Assembly (NCBI GenBank): GCA_002779825.1
Contig: PEVN01000372.1
Location: 1-38,138, forward strand
Length of the DNA: 38,138 nt
Source of the DNA: Armatimonadetes bacterium CG06_land_8_20_14_3_00_66_21
GTDB taxonomy: Bacteria; Armatimonadota; Abditibacteriia; CG2-30-66-41
Reading direction: 5' to 3'
Part shown: one piece after another, positions 1 through 7,298 of the stretch
How positions within the stretch are numbered: position 1 is the first letter of the stretch
Layout: the number at the start of each line of letters is the position of its first letter
Notes under the pieces: model-generated
What the model was told of the DNA's origin: nothing
The model's database searches: none
Seen by the model: only the letters and a program-made list of their open reading frames with translations
Made by a program: the position numbers and the translations under genes

Positions 1-132
1 GGTGGACGCCCCCGAAGGCACCGACGCCGACGCCGTGACGCCACGATCCAAGGTCACGACGACGCGCAGCGTGGGATTCCCCCGGGAATCCAGGATCTCA
101 ATGGCTTGTACGGACTCGATCTTTGCGTTCAT
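1..132 (-). CDS. eno: Enolase, N-terminal fragment (runs off window)
   Basis: Translating the minus strand from ATG at 132 gives 44 residues containing [13 protein letters not shown] and then SVPSGAST, the highly conserved N-terminal signature of enolase (2-phosphoglycerate to phosphoenolpyruvate, cytosolic glycolysis). The rest of the gene lies beyond position 1. The ribosome-binding site AAGGAG sits 6 bases before the ATG. The start overlaps the 3' end of the upstream DUF6062 gene by 35 bp, so the two are probably translated from one transcript. That transcript begins at the riboswitch-controlled promoter near 1719-1748. Enolase is inhibited by fluoride together with phosphate and Mg2+, and eno is a known member of fluoride-riboswitch regulons (established knowledge), which fits its place here. 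Confidence 0.93.
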
Positions 133-946
133 AGCTGTCTCCTTTTTGGGCTGACGGACTGTTGGCGCCGCCTTGCGCAGCCGCGTCGCCGCGGCCCGGA
201 AGCGGATCAGCGCATCGGCAACGGCCGTCCGTCGGCTCGAGAATGCCCGCATACTTCGCCAGCGCGCGAATCCAACTGTCCTGCTCGGCGCCTTTTGGCT
301 CGTCCCGAAACCGGTAGTCGCACTTGCGGATGTACTCGCGGACGTCGTCCAGGAGCGCACCGACGCTCTCGCGCTCTGCGGTCAGCAGGAACTCCGCCGC
401 TCTGGGATACCCGGAGAGTTCCAGCGCCAAGCGAACATGGGGAAGGCACAGCCCCGCGGACTCGCGGTAGAGGGCGCGCCAGTCGTTGCCGGCGGCGTCG
501 TTCTCCAGCTCTTTCAACAAGGCTCGCGCCGCAGAGCGCACGGCGTTGTCCGCGCTGGCGCACGCCGGGCACGGCGCCTGAGCGCCCAACCGTTCCTCGA
601 CGGCCCGGCGTCGCCCCTGTCGCGCCTCGCGGTGGCGAGCGGCGTTCTTCGGCAGGGAAAGCTCGGCGAGGTCCGTCGAGAGCCGCGCCAATAGGTACTC
701 GTAGGTGTTCGCGATGCCCAGTCCGTCGCCCCACTCTCGCTCGTACGCGTGCCCCGCTTGGCGGGCGTGCCGCGCGCAGAAACCCCGTGACTGCAGCAGC
801 TTGCCGATGGCGGCGCCGTCGTTCGTGCCCTCATGGGCCCAGAACCACAGGTAGTGCTCCTCCGCCTCGCGCTGAACGGCGCAGAGGAGGCACTGCCGCG
901 CCGAAGCAGCCTGTCGGAGCGTGCGGGCAATCAGCGCGAGGCTCAC
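98..946 (-). CDS. DUF6062-family Cys-rich protein (copy 2)
   Basis: 282 residues from a GTG start at 946, preceded by AGGTGG. It is built from two similar halves, each with a CxxC pair followed by a GxCxxH motif: C19/C22 with C57/H60, and C126/C129 with C167/H170. The end of the family-like region reads [14 protein letters not shown], a signature I associate with DUF6062, a family of unknown function. The repeated Cys/His pairs suggest two metal or redox sites (inference). There is no signal peptide or membrane segment, so it is probably cytosolic. It lies 4 bp downstream of a paralogue and overlaps enolase by 35 bp. The last ~40 residues look low-complexity and lie outside the conserved region. 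Function is unknown; the context (fluoride riboswitch upstream, enolase downstream) suggests a role under fluoride stress. Confidence 0.8.
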
Positions 947-950
947 GCGC

Positions 951-1577
951 TCACCACCTCACCAGTCGCACTGCCCGCCGCCAGCAGTCGCGCTCTTCGC
1001 CGTGGTCTTCCTTCGCGAAGCGGTAGTCCTGCTTGCGGATGAACTCCACCAGGTCGCGCTCCAGGCGCCGCAGGTGTTCGCGTTGCTGGCTCTGCACCCG
1101 ATGCCGGAACGCGCCGTCCGGGCAGCGGTGAAGTGCGCGTTCGTAGTGCGCCAGACAGAGCCCGAACGACCCGACGTAAGCCGCCTGCAACTGGGGGGCG
1201 TCATAGTGCGCCAGGACCTGGTCCAGGTACGAGTCCTCCGCTCGCCGCTGGTCCGCGCACAGCGGGCACTCCTGGCGTGGCAGCCGCATGGTCGGTTGAC
1301 CCAACCGCGAGGCCAAGGAGCACACCAGATCGTGGTAGACGAGTGCCACTCCCAGGCACTGCCCCAGACAGCCTTCGATCAACCGCGAATGACGCTCGCA
1401 GAATCCTCCGCCCTCCACCAGGCGCCGACGCGTCGGCGGATCATTGCAGAACTCGCCGAACAGCAGGTCCACTTGCCGGGTCAGGTCGCGTTCAACCAGC
1501 GCGCACACGGCGCAGCCGCGCACGGCGAACGCGTCGCACAGGTCAAAGAACGCTTTCCCTTTGCCGGGTTGTCGCAA
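951..1577 (-). CDS. DUF6062-family Cys-rich protein (copy 1, first gene after the riboswitch)
   Basis: I choose TTG at 1577, which has GGGAG about 7 bases upstream and lies just downstream of the terminator hairpin. The frame stays open further upstream, but that stretch is the structured leader. The product has 208 residues with the same two-half pattern as its neighbour: C22/C25 with C60/H63, and C104/C107 with C141/H144. It ends in EFIRKQDYRFAKE, the DUF6062-like tail. No signal peptide or membrane segment is seen. The stop at 951 is 4 bp from the next gene's start, so the two are co-transcribed. It is the first gene controlled by the fluoride riboswitch, a position usually held by a fluoride exporter or a fluoride-sensitive enzyme. 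The function is unknown; metal binding by the Cys/His pairs is an inference. Confidence 0.8.
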   Translation of the reverse strand: MRQPGKGKAFFDLCDAFAVRGCAVCALVERDLTRQVDLLFGEFCNDPPTRRRLVEGGGFCERHSRLIEGCLGQCLGVALVYHDLVCSLASRLGQPTMRLPRQECPLCADQRRAEDSYLDQVLAHYDAPQLQAAYVGSFGLCLAHYERALHRCPDGAFRHRVQSQQREHLRRLERDLVEFIRKQDYRFAKEDHGEERDCWRRAVRLVRW

Positions 1578-1596
1578 GGAGCCACTCCCATAACGC

Positions 1597-1634
1597 AAAA
1601 AATGACTCCCGACCAGGTACTGGTCAGGAGTCAT
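1597..1634 (-). terminator. Intrinsic terminator forming the riboswitch expression platform
   Basis: On the minus strand, ATGACTCCTGACCAG (1634-1620), loop TAC, then CTGGTCGGGAGTCAT (1616-1602) form a 15-bp stem with one G-T wobble, followed by a run of T (1602-1597). The left arm contains the ACTCC (1631-1627) that would pair with GGAGT in the aptamer loop. Folding of the ligand-bound aptamer and folding of the terminator are therefore mutually exclusive. This is the arrangement expected of a ligand-ON transcriptional switch. Confidence 0.9.
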
Positions 1635-1698
1635 CAGCGTTCCGAACAGTTCGCTCCAGCCTGAAAACCGGAGCCGGCGAACTCCATCGCCGAAAGTC
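1620..1698 (-). promoter_or_regulatory. Fluoride (crcB-type) riboswitch aptamer
   Basis: The minus strand carries GGCGATGGAGTTCGCC (1691-1676), a hairpin whose stem CGGCGA/TCGCCG encloses a TGGAGT loop. Downstream is GCTGATGACTCCT (1638-1626). These are the two hallmark segments of the crcB/fluoride aptamer (GGNGATGG-hairpin ... CTGATGNCNCCT). The loop GGAGT (1685-1681) is complementary to ACTCC (1631-1627), giving the expected pseudoknot. The segment between them (about 1675-1639) can form an additional hairpin, GCTCC...GGAGC. A terminator overlaps the 3' pseudoknot strand. Fluoride binding should block termination and switch on the DUF6062-DUF6062-eno operon. The assignment rests on recalled consensus, not a covariance-model search. 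Confidence 0.87.
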
Positions 1699-1718
1699 AG
1701 TTTGCAGAACGTGGAGAG

Positions 1719-1748
1719 ATTGTAGCTCCGCGACGCACGACGTGTCAA
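1719..1748 (-). promoter_or_regulatory. Sigma70-type promoter of the riboswitch operon
   Basis: On the minus strand, a perfect -35 box TTGACA (1748-1743) and a near-perfect -10 box TACAAT (1724-1719) are separated by 18 bp. Transcription should start near 1712, giving a leader of about 135 nt that contains the whole aptamer and terminator before the TTG start at 1577. Confidence 0.85.
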
Positions 1749-1772: not shown

Positions 1773-1801
1773 TTGCGGTTCGCCTCGGTTCCGTGTAGAC
1801 T
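1773..1801 (+). promoter_or_regulatory. Putative promoter for the GH51 gene
   Basis: TTGCGG (1773-1778) and TAGACT (1796-1801) lie 17 bp apart on the plus strand, 38 bp before the chosen GH51 start. Both boxes are only partial matches. The site diverges from the riboswitch promoter, whose -35 box lies only 25 bp away, so the two operons share a short control region. Confidence 0.45.
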
Positions 1802-1838
1802 CCCCGTCTGCCGTTCACCGCAAGCTGATGACGAAGGG

Positions 1839-4223
1839 ATGTTCACTGTGAAAGAAGCAATGTTGACCGGTCTACTAACCTGCCTCGTCTCGGCACTTGT
1901 GGCCTACAAGCCGGCCGCGGCGGCGGAGGTGGCCTTATCGGTGGACCCGGACACGGTGGTCGGGAAGATCGACGAGAAGGTGTACGGGCAGTTCTTCGAG
2001 CACATCTACCACTCGGCAAACGGGGGGCTGTGGGGGGAGATGGTGTGGAACCGGAGCTTCGAGGAGCAGCCCGCGGGCGGGCTTTGGCGGCTCGAGGGCG
2101 GGGAGATCGCGCAGGACAGCCTGGCGGACAACGTGCGGCTGACCTTCGGCGACCCAAAGTGGACCGACTACGAGTTCAGCGTCGAAGCCAAGAAGACCAG
2201 CGGCGCGGAAGGCTTCCTGATCCTGTTCCGCGTGGCGAGCGACGACGACTTCTACTGGCTGAACCTCGGCGGGTGGGGGAACCAGAGCCACGCGGTGGAG
2301 CGGGGTCGCGAGGGGGAGGGGCGGTGGCACTCGATCACGCCGCACGTGCCCGGCGCCATCGAGGCGGACAAGTGGTGCACCATCCGCATTCGCTGCGAGG
2401 GCCGGCACTTCCAGGTGTGGCTCGACGACCGGGAGGTGCTCAACTTCACCGACGACGACAAGGCGCACCTGTCCGGGGCGGTCGGCCTCGGCACCTGGCT
2501 CACGCGCGCTCGATTCCGGAACCCGAAGGTAACCTCGCTGGACGGAAAGGTGCTCTCCGAAGCCCTGCCCGAACTGACTGAGCGGCTTGCCGTGACGCGG
2601 CACTGGGAAGCCTACGGCCCCGGGCGGGTGACCGTGGCAACCGACAACCCGCTGAACAGCCAGCTCTGCCAGAAGATCCGCTCCGAACAGGGCGAGACGG
2701 GCTTGCAGCAGCAGCCGTTCTGTATCCGGCGCGGCGAGACGTACGCCGGCTCTGTGTGGGTGCGCGGCGAAGCGCCGAAGGGGCTGATTGCCCGCCTGCG
2801 CGACGGCGAAGAGACGCTGGCGGAGGTGAAGCTTCGACCGCCGACGCGCCAGTGGCAGTCGGTTCCCATTGCCTTCCACCTCATCCGCGACGCCGAGAAC
2901 GCCACGCTCCAACTCGGCGTCGTCGGCAACGGCGAGGTGTGGCTCGACCAGGTCAGCCTCATGCCGCAAGCCTGCCACGAAACGGGCGGGTTCAGGCCCG
3001 ACCTACTCCAGGCCATCGCCGACCTGCAGCCGCCGGTGATCCGCTGGCCCGGGGGATGCTTCGCGGAGTTCTACCGCTGGAAGGACGCCATTGGCCCGCA
3101 GCACACGCGGAAGATGTACCCGTTGTCTATCTGGGACGACCTCGACGTCAACTCACTGGGCACCGATGAGTTCGTCGATCTGTGTCGCCGCGTCGGCGCC
3201 GAACCGCTGATCGTCATCGACCTCGGCAGCCACGCCAAGCCGGAAGAGCGCGCCGCGTACATTCAGGAAGCCTGCGACTGGGTCGAGTACTGCAACGGCC
3301 CGGCAAGCTCCAAGTGGGGGCGTGTCCGCGCGGAGAACGGCCACCGGGAGCCATATGGCGTCAAGTACTGGGAGATCGACAACGAGACTTGGCGCATGGG
3401 TGCTGAAGCGTATGTGGCAGCGGTGCGCGAGTTCGTCCCCGCGCTGAAGAAGGTGGACCCCGCCCTCAAGATCGCCGTCTGCGGCAGCGGCGGGATGAAC
3501 CTGGAATGGAACAAGCAGATCATCGACGGGTGCGGCGACCTGGCCCACTACCTGAGCCTCCACCACTACGAGAACCCCGACCGCTTCGCCGACGGGCCGC
3601 GAGCGTATGAGCGGTTCTTCGAGCAGACGGGCGAGGCCATCGTCAACTCGAAGAACCCATTCCTGCACCTCTACGTGTCGGAGTGGAACGCCCAGAGCAC
3701 CGACTGGCGGACGGGGCTGTACGCCGGTGGGTTGCTCAACGCCTTTGAGCGCTGCGGCGACGTCCTGGAGATTGGCGGGCCCGCGCTCTTCCTGCGCCAC
3801 GTCTCGGCCACCGATTGGGACAACGCCTTCCTCAACTTCGACCATCGCACCTGGTTCCCGGCGCCCAACTACGTGGTGATGAAGCTCTACCGCGAGCACT
3901 ACGCCCCAGACCGCCTCGCCCTCAGCGGCGACCCCGGCGCCCTCAACGCGGTCGCGACGCGCTCTGCCGACAGCAAGCAGGTTTGCGTGAAGGCCGTCAA
4001 CCCAAGCGACCAGCCAATCGACGTGCGTCTGGAGGTCAAAGACACCTTCGTCGCCCACAGCGCCAGCCTGAAGCTGGTCGCGCCCGACTCACTCTCGGCA
4101 CGGAACACACTGGAAAGCCGCGACACCGTGCACGTCGTCGACGGCAAGCTCGGGCGCAACCGGAACGCGGTGACCTTCACGCTGCCGCGGTGGTCGGTGG
4201 GGGTGGTGACGCTTCAGCGTTGA
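1839..4223 (+). CDS. Secreted GH51 alpha-L-arabinofuranosidase with N-terminal LamG/CBM-like domains
   Basis: 794 residues from ATG 1839 (GTG 1848 is an alternative). The start begins a signal peptide, with a hydrophobic stretch ending in KPAAAA. Residues ~40-80 carry a GH51-like opening (YGQFFEHIYHSANGG, LWGEMVWNRSFE). Residues ~95-230 look like a LamG/DUF1080-type beta-sandwich (WTDYEFSVEAKK, FYWLNLGGWGNQ), followed by a second carbohydrate-binding-like sandwich. The catalytic barrel starts near RWPGGCF (~400). The acid/base motif appears as WEIDNE (~509) and the nucleophile as YVSEWN (~613), both typical of GH51. A C-terminal beta domain closes the protein. It should release terminal arabinose from arabinoxylan or arabinan outside the cytoplasm. 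The 3' end overlaps the converging GH36 gene by 10 bp. Confidence 0.88.
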   Translation: MFTVKEAMLTGLLTCLVSALVAYKPAAAAEVALSVDPDTVVGKIDEKVYGQFFEHIYHSANGGLWGEMVWNRSFEEQPAGGLWRLEGGEIAQDSLADNVRLTFGDPKWTDYEFSVEAKKTSGAEGFLILFRVASDDDFYWLNLGGWGNQSHAVERGREGEGRWHSITPHVPGAIEADKWCTIRIRCEGRHFQVWLDDREVLNFTDDDKAHLSGAVGLGTWLTRARFRNPKVTSLDGKVLSEALPELTERLAVTRHWEAYGPGRVTVATDNPLNSQLCQKIRSEQGETGLQQQPFCIRRGETYAGSVWVRGEAPKGLIARLRDGEETLAEVKLRPPTRQWQSVPIAFHLIRDAENATLQLGVVGNGEVWLDQVSLMPQACHETGGFRPDLLQAIADLQPPVIRWPGGCFAEFYRWKDAIGPQHTRKMYPLSIWDDLDVNSLGTDEFVDLCRRVGAEPLIVIDLGSHAKPEERAAYIQEACDWVEYCNGPASSKWGRVRAENGHREPYGVKYWEIDNETWRMGAEAYVAAVREFVPALKKVDPALKIAVCGSGGMNLEWNKQIIDGCGDLAHYLSLHHYENPDRFADGPRAYERFFEQTGEAIVNSKNPFLHLYVSEWNAQSTDWRTGLYAGGLLNAFERCGDVLEIGGPALFLRHVSATDWDNAFLNFDHRTWFPAPNYVVMKLYREHYAPDRLALSGDPGALNAVATRSADSKQVCVKAVNPSDQPIDVRLEVKDTFVAHSASLKLVAPDSLSARNTLESRDTVHVVDGKLGRNRNAVTFTLPRWSVGVVTLQR

Positions 4224-6162
4224 CAGTACCGGAGTAGGGCGGAATCCGGCTGTCCCGTCAGCTCGCCCTCGGCCAGCGCGTTCCCCGGCACCGTCTCAGT
4301 CGCGCGCGTGTCGAGGTTGGTCACCTCGTACGTCAGCTCCTCGGCAAGTGAGTGGAGCCGGAAGCGGGCGGTCGTGAACGGGCTTCTCGGTCGCTTCAGC
4401 ACAACGACGAGGCCGTCGCCCTGTTCGGGCCGGTCGAGTTGGTAGGCCAGCCAGGCGTCTTCGGCTTGGGTGTACTCGGTGAGCGGGTAGTAGTCGCCGA
4501 GGAAATACTCACGGAGGCGGTGTAGTCGGTTCGCCACAGCGGGGTAGCCCGGCTGATCGATTCCAGGTCGATCCGGCGGCCACCGCTGGCGCAGTTGTCG
4601 AGGAACAGGTTGGGGTGGCGCGTCAGCAACTCGTCCCAGAGGGCGTACTGGCCCTCGACGTAGCGGATCTCTGTGAGGCCCTGCCGATCGGGGGCGTCGG
4701 CGTTGCGCCAATACTCCAGGTGGGCGATGTTGGAGTCCTGCCGCAAGCAGTCGAGGCCAAAGTCGGCGATCATCTTCGACAGGTAGTCAGTCAGGAAGCG
4801 GCGAGCGTCGGGGTTGCCCAGATCGAGCAGCTTGTCGCCGGGGCCGAGCTTGTTGCGTTTGCTCTCCATGGCGACCCACTCGGCGGGCGATAGGTGGTCG
4901 CCGTAGTCCGCCCAAGAGACGGTGCGGTCGGCGGGTACGTCGAGCAACCAATCGGCGTGCTCGCGGGCCCACGGCGTGTTCGGCGCAACGCGCTCGAACT
5001 CGACCCAGAGCAGGAACTGCCGGCCCGATTGGTGGAGCAAATCGCTGATCGGCCGGAACCCGTTGGGGTAGAGGTCCTCCCGCGGCTTCCAGTTGCCATA
5101 CTCGCGAAGGTTAGGAATACACCGAAGTGGAAGTTCGCAGAACTTCACCCGGGGGCGTGTGGTGAGCACCCAACACACTGCTGTGCACGCAGAGGCGTCG
5201 AACTTGTGCAATAGCTTCGGTGTATTCCTAACCTTCGCGAGTACAGCATGCTCCATCCAGTGACCGGGTCCGCCAAACCACTCGGCATCGATCCAGTAGC
5301 ACTCGAAGGGCAGGTCGTGCTCGACGATCTTCCGCACGTTGTCGAGATGGACTTCGGCCGACGTGCCTCCCCAGTTGCCGCTGCACAGCGGAGGCACCAG
5401 CGGGGCGCCGCCGGGGTGCGGGCGGTGGTGCTTGAGGAGGAACCGCCGCAAGAGGTTGTGCCCGCGCAGCGGCGCGCCCTCCCAGAAGAGTAGCAGCACC
5501 CGGGGAGTGCGAATCGCCTCGCCGGGATGGAGCCGCAGGTGCGTCTGCGCCATTCCCGCCCGCAGCCGTACCGAGGCGTCTTCCCCGCGCGCGAACTCCG
5601 CCGCCCACTCGCCTGTCCAGCCGACGGCCAGCATGACGCCTTCCTGCCCCAGGTCGACGTTGAAGAATGGCAGCACTTCGCTGGAAGACCGCCCACCTCC
5701 CGGTTGAAGCCTCAAGTTGCCGCGCGGTCTCAACTCCCGCGTAACCGGCGCGAAGTCCTCCACGGAGCATCGCGCGCCCTTGGAGTGGCGGATGAGACAG
5801 TGCCCGTGCTCGCCGAGGGGCAGCCGGGCGTCGAGCGCTTGCACGGCCTCGATGAGCGGCGTCTCGGCGGAGCCGGTGTTCACAAAGTGAAGCACCCACT
5901 CGACCGCGGGGAAGTCGGTGTGGACGTTGATCTCGGCGCGCACTGCCAGCCCGGTCGCGGAATCGGTAAAGGTGACCGTCTCGACGAGGGAATCCGCGTT
6001 GGCGGTGCTCGGGCAACGGCGGCATTGCCAGTCGCGGAACAGCTCGGTGGACTTCGTGCCGTCGCACACGAAGGAGAAGGGGAGCTCTCCTGCCTCAGCC
6101 TCGGTGGTGAATGCCTCCGCCCATTGTTGGGCTCGTTTCTGTTCACTAACGGTCTGGGTCAT
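4214..6162 (-). pseudogene. GH36-like alpha-galactosidase, interrupted by a palindromic insert and a deletion/frameshift
   Basis: From ATG 6162 (AAGG 5 bases upstream) the frame encodes a GH36-type enzyme: beta-sandwich N-terminus, WIDAEWFGG, DCLRQDSN with the likely nucleophile Asp (~476), and DNCASGGRRID with the likely acid/base Asp (~531). Two lesions are visible. At 5101-5241 a 141-bp palindromic element adds about 47 foreign residues beside the substrate-binding loop without breaking the frame. Near 4510-4545 the frame changes after WRTDYTA: the next frame continues with REYFLGDYYPLT and runs to a stop at 4214. In the family the WRTDY motif is followed by roughly 80-100 residues before that C-terminal segment, so a block is missing, not just one base. 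The first frame alone would end at 4396. Probably inactive unless the assembly is wrong. Confidence 0.78.
5101..5241. mobile_element. 141-bp palindromic insertion element (MITE-like) inside the GH36 gene
   Basis: Perfect 27-bp terminal inverted repeats (5101-5127 and 5215-5241; outer end CTCGCGAAGGTTAGG) flank an 87-bp core. The core contains a further hairpin, GAAGTTC-GCA-GAACTTC. TA dinucleotides flank both ends (5099-5100, 5242-5243), as expected for a TA target duplication of IS630/mariner-type elements. No transposase is encoded. The element is read through in frame by the host gene, as with the palindromic elements known inside Rickettsia genes. Removing 141 bp plus one TA would not restore a perfect frame, so either the insertion was not a simple TA duplication or there was a small later change. 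Confidence 0.72.
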
Positions 6163-6269
6163 CGTGCCTTGCTCCGTTCCTGCTCGTGTCCACGCTTTGC
6201 TTGAGTGTCCCGGTGAAGGAGCGCGCCAAGGGACAGGGGCAAACGCATTCTGGAGGGGGGAACCGTCCG

Positions 6270-7298
6270 TCACCCGGCCCTGCGCGTCAACACTGCCCGC
6301 GCCCGGGCGACGCTGTAGAGCGACTCCAACTGCTTCCCCTCGCCGATGGCGATGAGCACATCGCCGGGTTCCACCACTGTCGTTGCGGAGGGGTTCGCGG
6401 CGAACCGCTTGTCTGGTTTCCGGATGGCCACCACGGTGACACCGATGCGCGCCGGCAGTTGCAGCTCCTGTAGGGTGCTGCCGACAAGCTCCGATTCGGG
6501 TTGCACGGTCGCTTCAGCCAAACCGAGGTCGACGTCGTCGGAGTGCAGCAGCGTCTCCAAGAAGTCGATGACGTGGGGGTAGAGCACTGCAGTGGCGATT
6601 CGGCGCCCGCCGAGGACATAGGGCGAAATCACCCGATTGGCGCCCGCCCGCCGGAGCTTGTGTTCGGTCTCGAGTTCGCCGGCGCGGGCGATGATGCTCA
6701 GGGTCGGGTTCAGGTCGCGCGCCGTCAGCACGATGAAGACGTTGTCTGCATCGGTCGCAACGGCGGCGATCAGCCCCTTGGCGTGCTCGATTTGCGCCTG
6801 GCGCAGCGTGTCCTCGTGGGTTGCATCTCCGGCGACGTGAGGGCACTCGCATTCCAGCAGGGCCTCAAGCGCTGCCGGCTCGCTGTCGATCACCACGAAG
6901 GGCTGTTTGTGCCGCCGCAGCTCCTCCGCAATCTGGTGTCCGATGCGGCCGTACCCGCACACAATGTAGTGGTCCCTGAGCCGCTGAATCATCCGTGTCA
7001 CCCGCCAGCGCTGGATTGTGTGGGAGCGCTCCAACAGCCCCTCAACCAGGGCCATGCCCACCCACAGCCAAGTAGCCGTGCCGAAGACGATTAGGACAAT
7101 GGTAAACGCCTTGCTTCGGTCGCTCATGTTGTAGTCGCTGAACCCAATGGTCGACACGGTGATCACCACCATGTAGAGCGCCTTGAAGAACGACCACCCC
7201 TCGATCCACATGTAGCCCAAAACGCCGACAAGCAGCAGGCACGCCAAGACGGCGACGGCAAAGCGGAGCTGTTGGAGTGGGTTGCGAAGTGAAGGCAT
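6270..7298 (-). CDS. Two-TM potassium channel with RCK (TrkA-N/TrkA-C) domains
   Basis: 342 residues from ATG 7298; upstream codons in the same frame are Arg/Pro-rich and look non-coding. TM1 spans ~11-32, a pore helix and filter follow (TVSTIGFSD, filter residues 50-55), and TM2 is ~64-88. A cytosolic RCK domain starts at ~109 with the Rossmann motif GYGRIG (115-120). A TrkA-C domain follows at ~255-340. The overall order matches prokaryotic Kch/MthK-like channels. The filter reads TIGFSD and not TVGYGD: the second Gly is Ser, which may change selectivity. The nearest downstream gene on this strand is the GH36 remnant, whose chosen start is 107 bp away; no functional link is evident. Confidence 0.88.
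   Translation of the reverse strand: MPSLRNPLQQLRFAVAVLACLLLVGVLGYMWIEGWSFFKALYMVVITVSTIGFSDYNMSDRSKAFTIVLIVFGTATWLWVGMALVEGLLERSHTIQRWRVTRMIQRLRDHYIVCGYGRIGHQIAEELRRHKQPFVVIDSEPAALEALLECECPHVAGDATHEDTLRQAQIEHAKGLIAAVATDADNVFIVLTARDLNPTLSIIARAGELETEHKLRRAGANRVISPYVLGGRRIATAVLYPHVIDFLETLLHSDDVDLGLAEATVQPESELVGSTLQELQLPARIGVTVVAIRKPDKRFAANPSATTVVEPGDVLIAIGEGKQLESLYSVARARAVLTRRAG

Follow-up and report, generated by a model that had tools for sequence, protein, structure and literature searches.

A Probable Fluoride-Riboswitch Operon with Two DUF6062 Proteins and Enolase in an Armatimonadota Genome, and a Possible Link of DUF6062 to a Dynamin-Like GTPase

Introduction

Known ways of withstanding fluoride are to export it, to control pH and to over-produce sensitive enzymes. 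Genes described as neighbours of fluoride riboswitches include those encoding CrcB, CLC, Na+/H+ antiporter and enolase (PMC11139923; Weinberg 2010, PMC2864571, both as far as their accessible parts go). In the accessible part of the former, the control of eno by a fluoride riboswitch is already recorded and divalent metals are described as disturbed by fluoride (PMC11139923). For the protein family DUF6062, no literature was found under that name, and none was found on a fluoride riboswitch together with dynamin; no title dealt with fluoride dynamin or DUF6062.

In the locus described here, two DUF6062 genes and eno follow a predicted fluoride riboswitch at the start of a 38,138-nucleotide stretch of DNA, hereafter the window. 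The original prediction, made from these letters, was that the DUF6062 proteins, standing in the place of an exporter, may be fluoride-response factors, for example ones that protect or repair enolase or other Mg-dependent enzymes.

Leader RNA and Genes of the Operon

Positions 1748-1 (minus strand) very probably form an operon controlled by a fluoride-sensing RNA switch, with fluoride binding predicted from the sequence. All features given below lie on this strand. The sigma70-like promoter TTGACA-18-TACAAT (1719..1748) matched the consensus at 11 of 12 positions (mean in shuffles, 0.1). The fluoride riboswitch aptamer (RF01734, 1618..1700) was matched by the covariance model with 33.4 bits, at E 7.3e-7 when 2.5 kb was searched and 5.6e-7 when the whole genome was searched. 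This is 0.6 bit below the gathering score of 34 bits, so that a default Rfam scan of the window returns nothing; another copy in the same assembly scored 36.0 bits. Helices P2 and P3, the pseudoknot (GGAGU 1685-1681 with ACUCC 1631-1627) and the conserved GAUG and UGAUG blocks were all present, the outer pairs of P3 being irregular. The alignment placed an extra 22-nt hairpin (1653..1674) between the two conserved blocks, and inserts at this position were found in further aptamers. In an alignment of 45 aptamers, 12 named pairs were paired in 94.4% of their cells, with 49 two-sided changes vs 14.9 in shuffles.

An intrinsic terminator (1597..1635), whose stem has 16 pairs and which carries six T, holds the 3' pseudoknot strand in its 5' arm. 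The same overlap of terminator arm and pseudoknot strand was found in 41 of 110 distinct aptamers tested (46/119 before duplicate removal), where 0.7 were expected. Promoter, aptamer and a terminator competing with the pseudoknot had all been proposed for this leader, and all were borne out. Because the aptamer overlaps the terminator, fluoride binding would let transcription run into the operon: the computed evidence argues strongly that bound fluoride would hold the pseudoknot, keep the terminator from forming and let transcription enter DUF6062-DUF6062-eno.

The first DUF6062 gene (951..1577) encodes 208 aa with two CxxC...CxxH modules and an all-helical predicted fold, and the second (98..946) encodes 282 aa; each protein matched PF19538 with 70.9 bits (cut-off 27). 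The start of the first gene is most likely TTG 1577, with the probable Shine-Dalgarno sequence GGGAG 7 nt 5' of it (1585..1589); given this start, the open frame 951-1748 takes in the leader. The 5' end of eno (1..132) comprises 44 codons and is cut at position 1, where the contig begins; Enolase_N gave 50.1 bits over 43 residues (cut-off 35), the remainder of the gene lying past the contig end. The closest enolase was the aptamer-linked enolase of a relative. The predicted gene order was thereby upheld, as was the absence of crcB, since no CrcB match was found anywhere in the assembly. An origin from a virus or plasmid was rejected: viral contigs yielded no confirmed encoded relative, and plasmids no match.

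The source genome contained three RF01734 matches and four DUF6062 genes, and all of them were linked: every DUF6062 gene sits behind a fluoride aptamer, and one is fused to a dynamin-like GTPase. The estimated contamination of this assembly is 6.6%, so the three aptamer loci possibly come from more than one organism.

Linkage of DUF6062 to Fluoride Aptamers in Other Genomes

In 291 Armatimonadota genomes, a same-strand aptamer was found at most 3.1 kb upstream in 25 of 46 DUF6062 loci, and within 300 nt in 15 of them, under strict filters by which weak aptamers may be missed. Co-occurrence by genome was significant in this sample (Fisher p 1.9e-11). As the first gene behind 113 aptamers (of 117 sites, four being left out), DUF6062 was the commonest after crcB (20 and 33 cases, respectively), and some linked loci held two DUF6062 copies. 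The operon tables were made by simple open-frame picking, with a gene behind two aptamers counted for each. Neighbour family names rest on one or a few representatives each; one cluster that mixed DUF6062 with dynamins was split by length, and a 134-aa dynamin fragment (G032) was not counted as DUF6062.

A second sample from several phyla, with aptamer matches accepted to E 0.1, gave an aptamer within 3 kb in 33 of 80 DUF6062 loci (at least 25 bits in 26 of the 33), or 27 of 66 when first-sample contigs were removed. Over the full range counted, 36 of the 80 loci were linked; at least 14 first-sample contigs, recognised by their length, are included in this sample, seven of them among the 36. 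These loci were found by the pattern Ex[IVC]RKxDYRF, so the constancy of this motif in their alignment (A4) results from how they were chosen and does not count as evidence. In a sample around a Chloroflexota genome, made up of the best-scoring 40 places with one adjoining place skipped and sharing at least four contigs (again by length) with the second sample, aptamer-linked DUF6062 was observed in 10 of 40 loci. On the DUF6062 tree, the linked label requires 20 changes, at least six of them forced by well-supported branches; the four source-genome rows were added as linked, L201 was left out, and L193 was set to linked because of an Rfam match about 7 kb upstream, beyond the range otherwise covered.

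Comparison across genomes shows DUF6062 to be a recurring family of the predicted fluoride regulon, with many loci in Armatimonadota, in Chloroflexota and in records of other phyla. No upstream aptamer was present in the range counted at 21/46 (Armatimonadota), 44/80 (second sample) and 30/40 (Chloroflexota) loci, indicating that DUF6062 is not exclusively a fluoride family; the neighbours of the unlinked genes in the second sample showed no dominant recurrent family (maximum 5/44). The two tests of the original prediction open to computation, an aptamer match and recurring linkage, both came out in favour of a fluoride response. Its description of DUF6062 as occupying the exporter's place was only partly apt: in relatives DUF6062 often lies in the same run as CrcB, DUF190 or Na+/H+ antiporters.

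Among the 113 aptamers, the joint occurrence of eno and DUF6062 in one same-strand run (within 7 kb) was confined to the window, G005, G030 and G059. In the second sample eno was present at 2 of 36 linked DUF6062 loci, one of them again G059. In four further genomes (G031, G032, G043 and G090) eno followed an aptamer without DUF6062. Each of the eight genomes examined that have an aptamer-linked eno carried two or more eno genes. The divergent enolase-like copies G090x and G043x were left out of the enolase comparison at 12 positions.

DUF6062 Proteins and Their Partners

DUF6062 carries a CxxC...CxxH module in each half, and all 40 aligned rows kept the eight Cys/His positions unchanged, in keeping with the metal-site idea of the original prediction; among 81 DUF6062 proteins the last His was lost in one (L252). 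The two modules are a feature found here and are not part of the Pfam definition of PF19538. The structure was predicted as all-helical (mean pLDDT 94.8) and the protein is internally duplicated (97.6%, E 4.5e-12). A fold search with the model gave no match at E <= 0.001 in PDB or BFVD, the sequence profile gave weak matches only against PDB (best E 0.015), and no regulator family is assigned in Pfam or NCBIfam. The two predicted four-ligand Cys3His sites are most likely structural zinc sites.

The dynamin-DUF6062 fusion (C49) lies behind an aptamer and was seen in one genome only. It matched Dynamin_N (E 1.4e-28), carries the GTPase motifs GQFKRGKSS, DTPG and NKVD, and its GTPase part spans about 680 residues. 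No strongly hydrophobic 19-residue stretch was found past its G domain. Such a stretch was present in 3 of 5 unlinked dynamins and missing from the aptamer-linked ones, which show weak stretches only, making membrane action less certain. A same-strand aptamer (up to 5.2 kb) preceded 17 of 70 Dynamin_N places and an aptamer preceded 24 of 39 places of F5, an unnamed helical family whose structure was predicted from five sequences only (mean pLDDT 71.3). Dynamin-F5 fusions were observed in three genomes of two genera.

In Armatimonadota, the dynamin-like GTPase and F5 travel with DUF6062, and the association rests on this phylum: among the 36 loci linked in the second sample, dynamin was found in seven and F5 in three, of which 6/7 and 3/3 were first-sample contigs, leaving L265 as the only linked locus with dynamin outside the first sample. 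In PADLOC, two dynamins matched LeoA/LeoBC (LeoA model, 9.6e-22). Membership of DUF6062 in a defence system was rejected, as both window DUF6062 proteins and one F5 matched no PADLOC model.

Discussion

Taken as a whole, we lean modestly towards a fluoride-induced operon in which DUF6062, rather than repairing enolase, belongs to a GTPase/envelope-stress module as a zinc-stabilised partner. We infer that DUF6062 would act as the adaptor or partner in this module, to which a dynamin-like GTPase and F5 may be added in Armatimonadota. The module may guard the envelope and proton barrier, or a GTPase-dependent process, during acidification of the cell by HF. The enolase of the operon would be a second copy whose part is to restore flux through glycolysis in parallel; it would not be a client of DUF6062. 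A more specific form, put forward tentatively and as rather doubtful, is a riboswitch-induced fluoride defence other than export, in which the dynamin-like GTPase, the DUF6062 zinc-site adaptor and F5 remodel or seal membranes or shield GTPase-dependent processes, with DUF6062 fulfilling a related function by itself in phyla that lack the GTPase.

That DUF6062 protects, chaperones or remetallates fluoride-inhibited Mg enzymes, enolase first, is suggested by the gene order of the window, by the aptamer-linked loci of G005, G030, G059 and L268, which hold both eno and DUF6062, and by the invariant Cys/His sites; it is nevertheless unlikely, as most aptamer-linked DUF6062 loci lack eno (present in 2/36), the four genomes named above have eno behind aptamers without DUF6062, Cys3His sites fit zinc and not Mg, and the fusion partner is a GTPase. 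Enolase-specific repair was therefore ranked low, and this part of the original prediction was not sustained. The same sites could belong to a protein that binds or buffers metal, either Zn or the Mg/Ca disturbed by fluoride (PMC11139923, accessible part), with no adaptor role. Eight invariant ligands agree with this, but the core is duplicated and confidently predicted as helical, its two CxxC/CxxH sites have the look of structural ones, and a storage role leaves the GTPase fusion unexplained, so that buffering is considered improbable.

There is likewise little likelihood that DUF6062 tunes the fluoride regulon as a metal-binding regulator or sensor, such as a DNA- or RNA-binding zinc protein: its small size, helical fold, metal sites, first position behind 20/113 aptamers and occasional two copies per locus would suit such a role, but neither a fold match at E <= 0.001 nor a regulator family was found, the fusion joins it to a GTPase part about 680 residues long, and DUF6062 operons already have an RNA sensor. 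Finally, genomic islands or common ancestry could have produced the linkage as a side effect, with DUF6062 having no fluoride role, given that the same gene order is repeated in related genera (family f19), fluoride genes cluster, and about half or more of the DUF6062 loci have no aptamer. The tree with its 20 changes, of which six or more are forced, the aptamer within 300 nt at 15/46 loci and the recurrence of the link in records from several phyla make this very improbable.

The DUF6062 family, which over part of its distribution has a GTPase as partner, points to a tier of fluoride resistance not found in the literature searched, as far as the accessible parts of those sources go. The result offers a hypothesis for what DUF6062 does, and induction by fluoride provides a simple experimental entry point to it.

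Compared with known fluoride (crcB) riboswitch operons (RF01734), the operons examined here share the aptamer helices, the pseudoknot, the overlapping terminator and neighbours such as CrcB, CLC, Na+/H+ antiporter and eno, whereas DUF6062, dynamin-like GTPase and F5 genes, also seen here, are not mentioned in the accessible parts of PMC11139923 and PMC2864571. Both window proteins exceed the PF19538 cut-off (70.9 vs 27) and keep all eight Cys/His; that entry states no function, whereas here the family shows a link to fluoride and, in one case, a fusion with a dynamin-like GTPase. With bacterial dynamin-like proteins of the LeoA/DynA type, the GTPases share the Dynamin_N domain with its GTPase motifs and the PADLOC LeoA match (9.6e-22), but aptamer-linked members have weak hydrophobic stretches only, 17/70 places lie behind a fluoride aptamer, and the C-terminus of relatives bears DUF6062 in one genome and F5 in three. 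As in the fluoride-regulon enolase of PMC11139923 (accessible part), eno is here under a predicted fluoride riboswitch, but another enolase gene stands alongside it in 8/8 genomes examined.

The fluoride leader and its operon

The operon running from 1748 to the contig end on the minus strand contained all elements of the original prediction: a sigma70-like promoter (TTGACA-18-TACAAT), a fluoride aptamer (RF01734; 1700-1618), a competing terminator with a 16-pair stem and six T (1635-1597), two DUF6062 genes (951-1577 and 98-946; PF19538, 70.9 bits each) and eno (1-132; Enolase_N, 50.1 bits), of which the contig end leaves only the initial 44 codons. The aptamer was supported by the RF01734 covariance model (33.4 bits, E 5.6e-7 genome-wide), though its score lies 0.6 bit below the Rfam cut-off, which is why the default Rfam scan of the window was empty.

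In the window aptamer the outer P3 pairs are irregular, and an additional hairpin is present where inserts also occur in other aligned aptamers. Its 3' pseudoknot strand is contained in the 5' arm of the terminator, so terminator and pseudoknot are mutually exclusive, and the leader is predicted to be the familiar fluoride-on arrangement. A terminator overlapped the pseudoknot in the same way in 41 of 110 distinct aptamers tested (0.7 expected after shuffling). When 45 aptamers were aligned, 94.4% of the cells for P2, P3 and pseudoknot pairs remained paired, and two-sided pair changes exceeded those of every shuffle.

A divergent alpha-L-arabinofuranosidase-like gene (1773-4223 (+)) adjoins the leader; homologues sought in the fetched loci (L074:2292-4856 (+) and L183:7025-9016 (-)) were found beside an aptamer in one genome (G033) and on an aptamer contig in another (G034). 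By eye, the end of a Melibiase-family frame at 4396-6273 (-) looks unlike the family, and the overlapping frame 4214-4711 (-) may carry the rest of the protein.

DUF6062 proteins

Exactly eight residues were invariant in 40 aligned DUF6062 proteins, forming CxxC and CxxH twice; the last His was lost in one protein (L252) of an 81-row set. Three Cys and one His are a classical zinc set, and each half of DUF6062 holds these four as a putative metal site. The halves are homologous to each other (97.6%, E 4.5e-12), and the AlphaFold2 model was all-helical (mean pLDDT 94.8), with no match at E <= 0.001 among solved structures and viral models. A C-terminal RKxDYRF motif was common but missing from the dynamin fusion and divergent copies; it is fixed in the 81-row set because the search pattern selected it.

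Linkage of DUF6062 to fluoride aptamers within the phylum

Among 291 Armatimonadota-phylum genomes, PF19538 matches were found in 42, RF01734 matches in 93 and both in 33 (Fisher p 1.9e-11). The 75 DUF6062 match places formed 46 loci. In 25 of these, from 23 genomes, an aptamer on the same strand precedes DUF6062 by no more than 3.1 kb, and in 15 by no more than 300 nt; the proposed association of DUF6062 genes with fluoride riboswitches thus recurs across genomes. The surroundings of 113 of the phylum's 117 aptamers were fetched. The first gene encoded CrcB behind 33 of them, DUF6062 behind 20, a member of the main antiporter family behind 14 and a dynamin behind 9; over 7 kb of same-strand downstream sequence, the counts were CrcB 37, DUF6062 30, antiporter 28, DUF190 26, dynamin 22, Usp 17, F5 (a small helical family) 15 and eno 10. 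Other genes seen in fluoride operons encode a protein of cyclopropane fatty acid synthase type (PF02353), calcineurin-like phosphoesterase, Cytidylate_kin2 (PF13189), a HEAT-repeat protein and an MFS transporter (for example, L117:7855-9066 (-), L073:6322-7017 (-), L130:3198-3770 (+) and L109:4356-4811 (+)).

The 21 loci with no same-strand aptamer within 3.1 kb upstream count against the fluoride reading. Thirteen of them belong to one family (f8), in which DUF6062 adjoins other genes, and a more sensitive aptamer search around these 13 gave no match. In another locus counted as unlinked (G059), the gene run is headed by an aptamer that lies 4.9 kb upstream of DUF6062.

Linkage in other phyla

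A second sample of 80 DUF6062 loci came from searching genome contigs for a motif; the records bear the titles Armatimonadota, Chloroflexota, Omnitrophota, Kiritimatiellota, Lentisphaerae, Bacillota, Thermotogae and others. Aptamers were sought in these loci using a model derived from the 45 aligned aptamers. The phylum labels are record titles and fallible, since L251 is titled Proteobacteria and its genome was drawn within the phylum of a Chloroflexota genome. A same-strand aptamer lay within 3 kb upstream in 33/80 loci (27/66 without first-sample contigs), within 300 nt in 21 (17 once first-sample contigs are set aside) and, counting every distance covered by the fetched DNA, in 36. The upstream strip, about 12% of the strand-bases searched, held 34 of 47 aptamer matches.

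The 36 linked loci carried CrcB (5), antiporters (7), Usp (6), dynamin (7) and F5 (3), whereas the 44 unlinked loci had no CrcB, Usp, dynamin or F5 and a single antiporter (that of L193, a locus with an aptamer some 7 kb upstream in its genome); they also had MFS (2), DUF190 (2), HEAT (1) and eno (1). Six of the seven dynamins and all three F5 genes lie on first-sample contigs, the seventh dynamin being in L265, titled Bacillota (Dynamin_N 4.6e-24); the GTPase and F5 link is therefore shown mainly for Armatimonadota.

Among the 40 best-scoring DUF6062 places from 301 genomes around a Chloroflexota genome, 10 were preceded by an aptamer on the same strand at a distance of 73 nt to 3.9 kb, and 30 were not. 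On a tree of 83 DUF6062 proteins, the linked label needed 20 changes against a shuffled mean of 28, with at least six forced by well-supported branches, the bootstrap being not settled. The predicted DUF6062-fluoride link crosses phyla.

Fluoride loci in the genome of the window

The assembly (8.29 Mb, 578 contigs, 93% complete) has three RF01734 matches, one above the cut-off, and all four of its DUF6062-bearing genes lie behind these aptamers on the same three contigs; the loci could stem from more than one organism because estimated contamination is 6.6%. On contig C48, the gene behind the aptamer encodes a member of the Na+/H+ exchanger family (PF00999), and DUF6062 follows it. On contig C49, directly behind the best-scoring aptamer of the assembly, a single 896-residue frame (L010:945-3635 (+)) encodes a Dynamin_N GTPase with DUF6062 fused at its C-terminus. 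Two Acido-Lenti-1 RNA matches on C48 (L009:1072-1118 (-) and 1234-1280 (+); 35.0 and 32.1 bits) were below the gathering score of 37.

CrcB was not found in this 93% complete assembly by a search that matched in 10 of 14 control genomes. One CLC protein is encoded elsewhere; by eye it resembles the common type and has an extended C-terminal part, and no aptamer was found in the 7 kb surrounding its gene.

Enolase

All eight examined genomes with an aptamer-linked eno, the window's included, have another enolase gene (L293-L309; window 1-132 (-)). Twelve positions separated seven linked from eight housekeeping enolases (at least 6/7 vs at least 7/8), mostly consistently, and the linked enolases formed no single supported group in a quick tree. 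The window's 44-residue start shared 34 identities with the linked copy of G005 and 25 with its own housekeeping enolase. The aptamer-linked enolase is possibly a fluoride-tolerant isoform. The proposal that eno belongs to the fluoride regulon agrees with its listing as a fluoride-riboswitch gene in the portion of PMC11139923 consulted; the suggestion that it is a client of DUF6062 was not sustained, eno being better read as a parallel fluoride response.

Dynamin-like GTPases and F5

Dynamin_N occurred at 70 places in 42 of the 291 genomes; 17 of these places follow an aptamer on the same strand at distances of up to 5.2 kb. Eighteen dynamin frames were compared, 17 behind an aptamer and one (G222) on an aptamer contig. 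DTPG and NKxD motifs were kept in all and the GKS P-loop pattern in 14; the frames had only weak hydrophobic stretches, in contrast to three of five unlinked dynamins.

F5 (about 155 residues) is strongly tied to fluoride aptamers: of its 39 places (36/291 genomes), 24 follow a same-strand aptamer by at most 6 kb, and at 15 DUF6062 lies no more than 6 kb away. The tested member had no Pfam or NCBIfam match over the cut-off. Members are predicted helical (L091:4704-5168 (-), L080:6764-7222 (-) and others; alignment A5), G-S-P and LTPL positions were invariant among 12 aligned rows, and a divergent relative (f12) is present in other fluoride loci. Fusions of F5 to the C-terminus of a dynamin occur in three genomes from two genera, once just behind a weak aptamer match (17.7 bits, E 0.002). 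DUF6062 may act as a zinc-stabilised adaptor or partner of a fluoride-induced dynamin-like GTPase, a reading based mainly on the finding of both DUF6062 and F5 in fusions with GTPases of this kind. An envelope role for the aptamer-linked dynamins is plausible by analogy, since Bacillus subtilis DynA is described as active in membrane surveillance against antibiotics (PMC8844932).

Comparison with known fluoride riboswitch genes

'DUF6062' was not mentioned in the literature searched, a scope without the Baker 2012 gene list, and no paper there combined 'fluoride riboswitch' with 'dynamin'. Neither DUF6062 nor a dynamin is named as a fluoride-riboswitch gene in the consulted portions of PMC11139923 and PMC2864571, where fluoride exporters, Na+/H+ antiporters, pyrophosphatase, enolase, haloacid dehalogenase-like phosphatases, formate hydrogen lyase and mutS are named. 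Within this literature, the part of the fluoride regulon formed by DUF6062, dynamin and F5 appears not to have been described; the window riboswitch adds a new member to an already known class.
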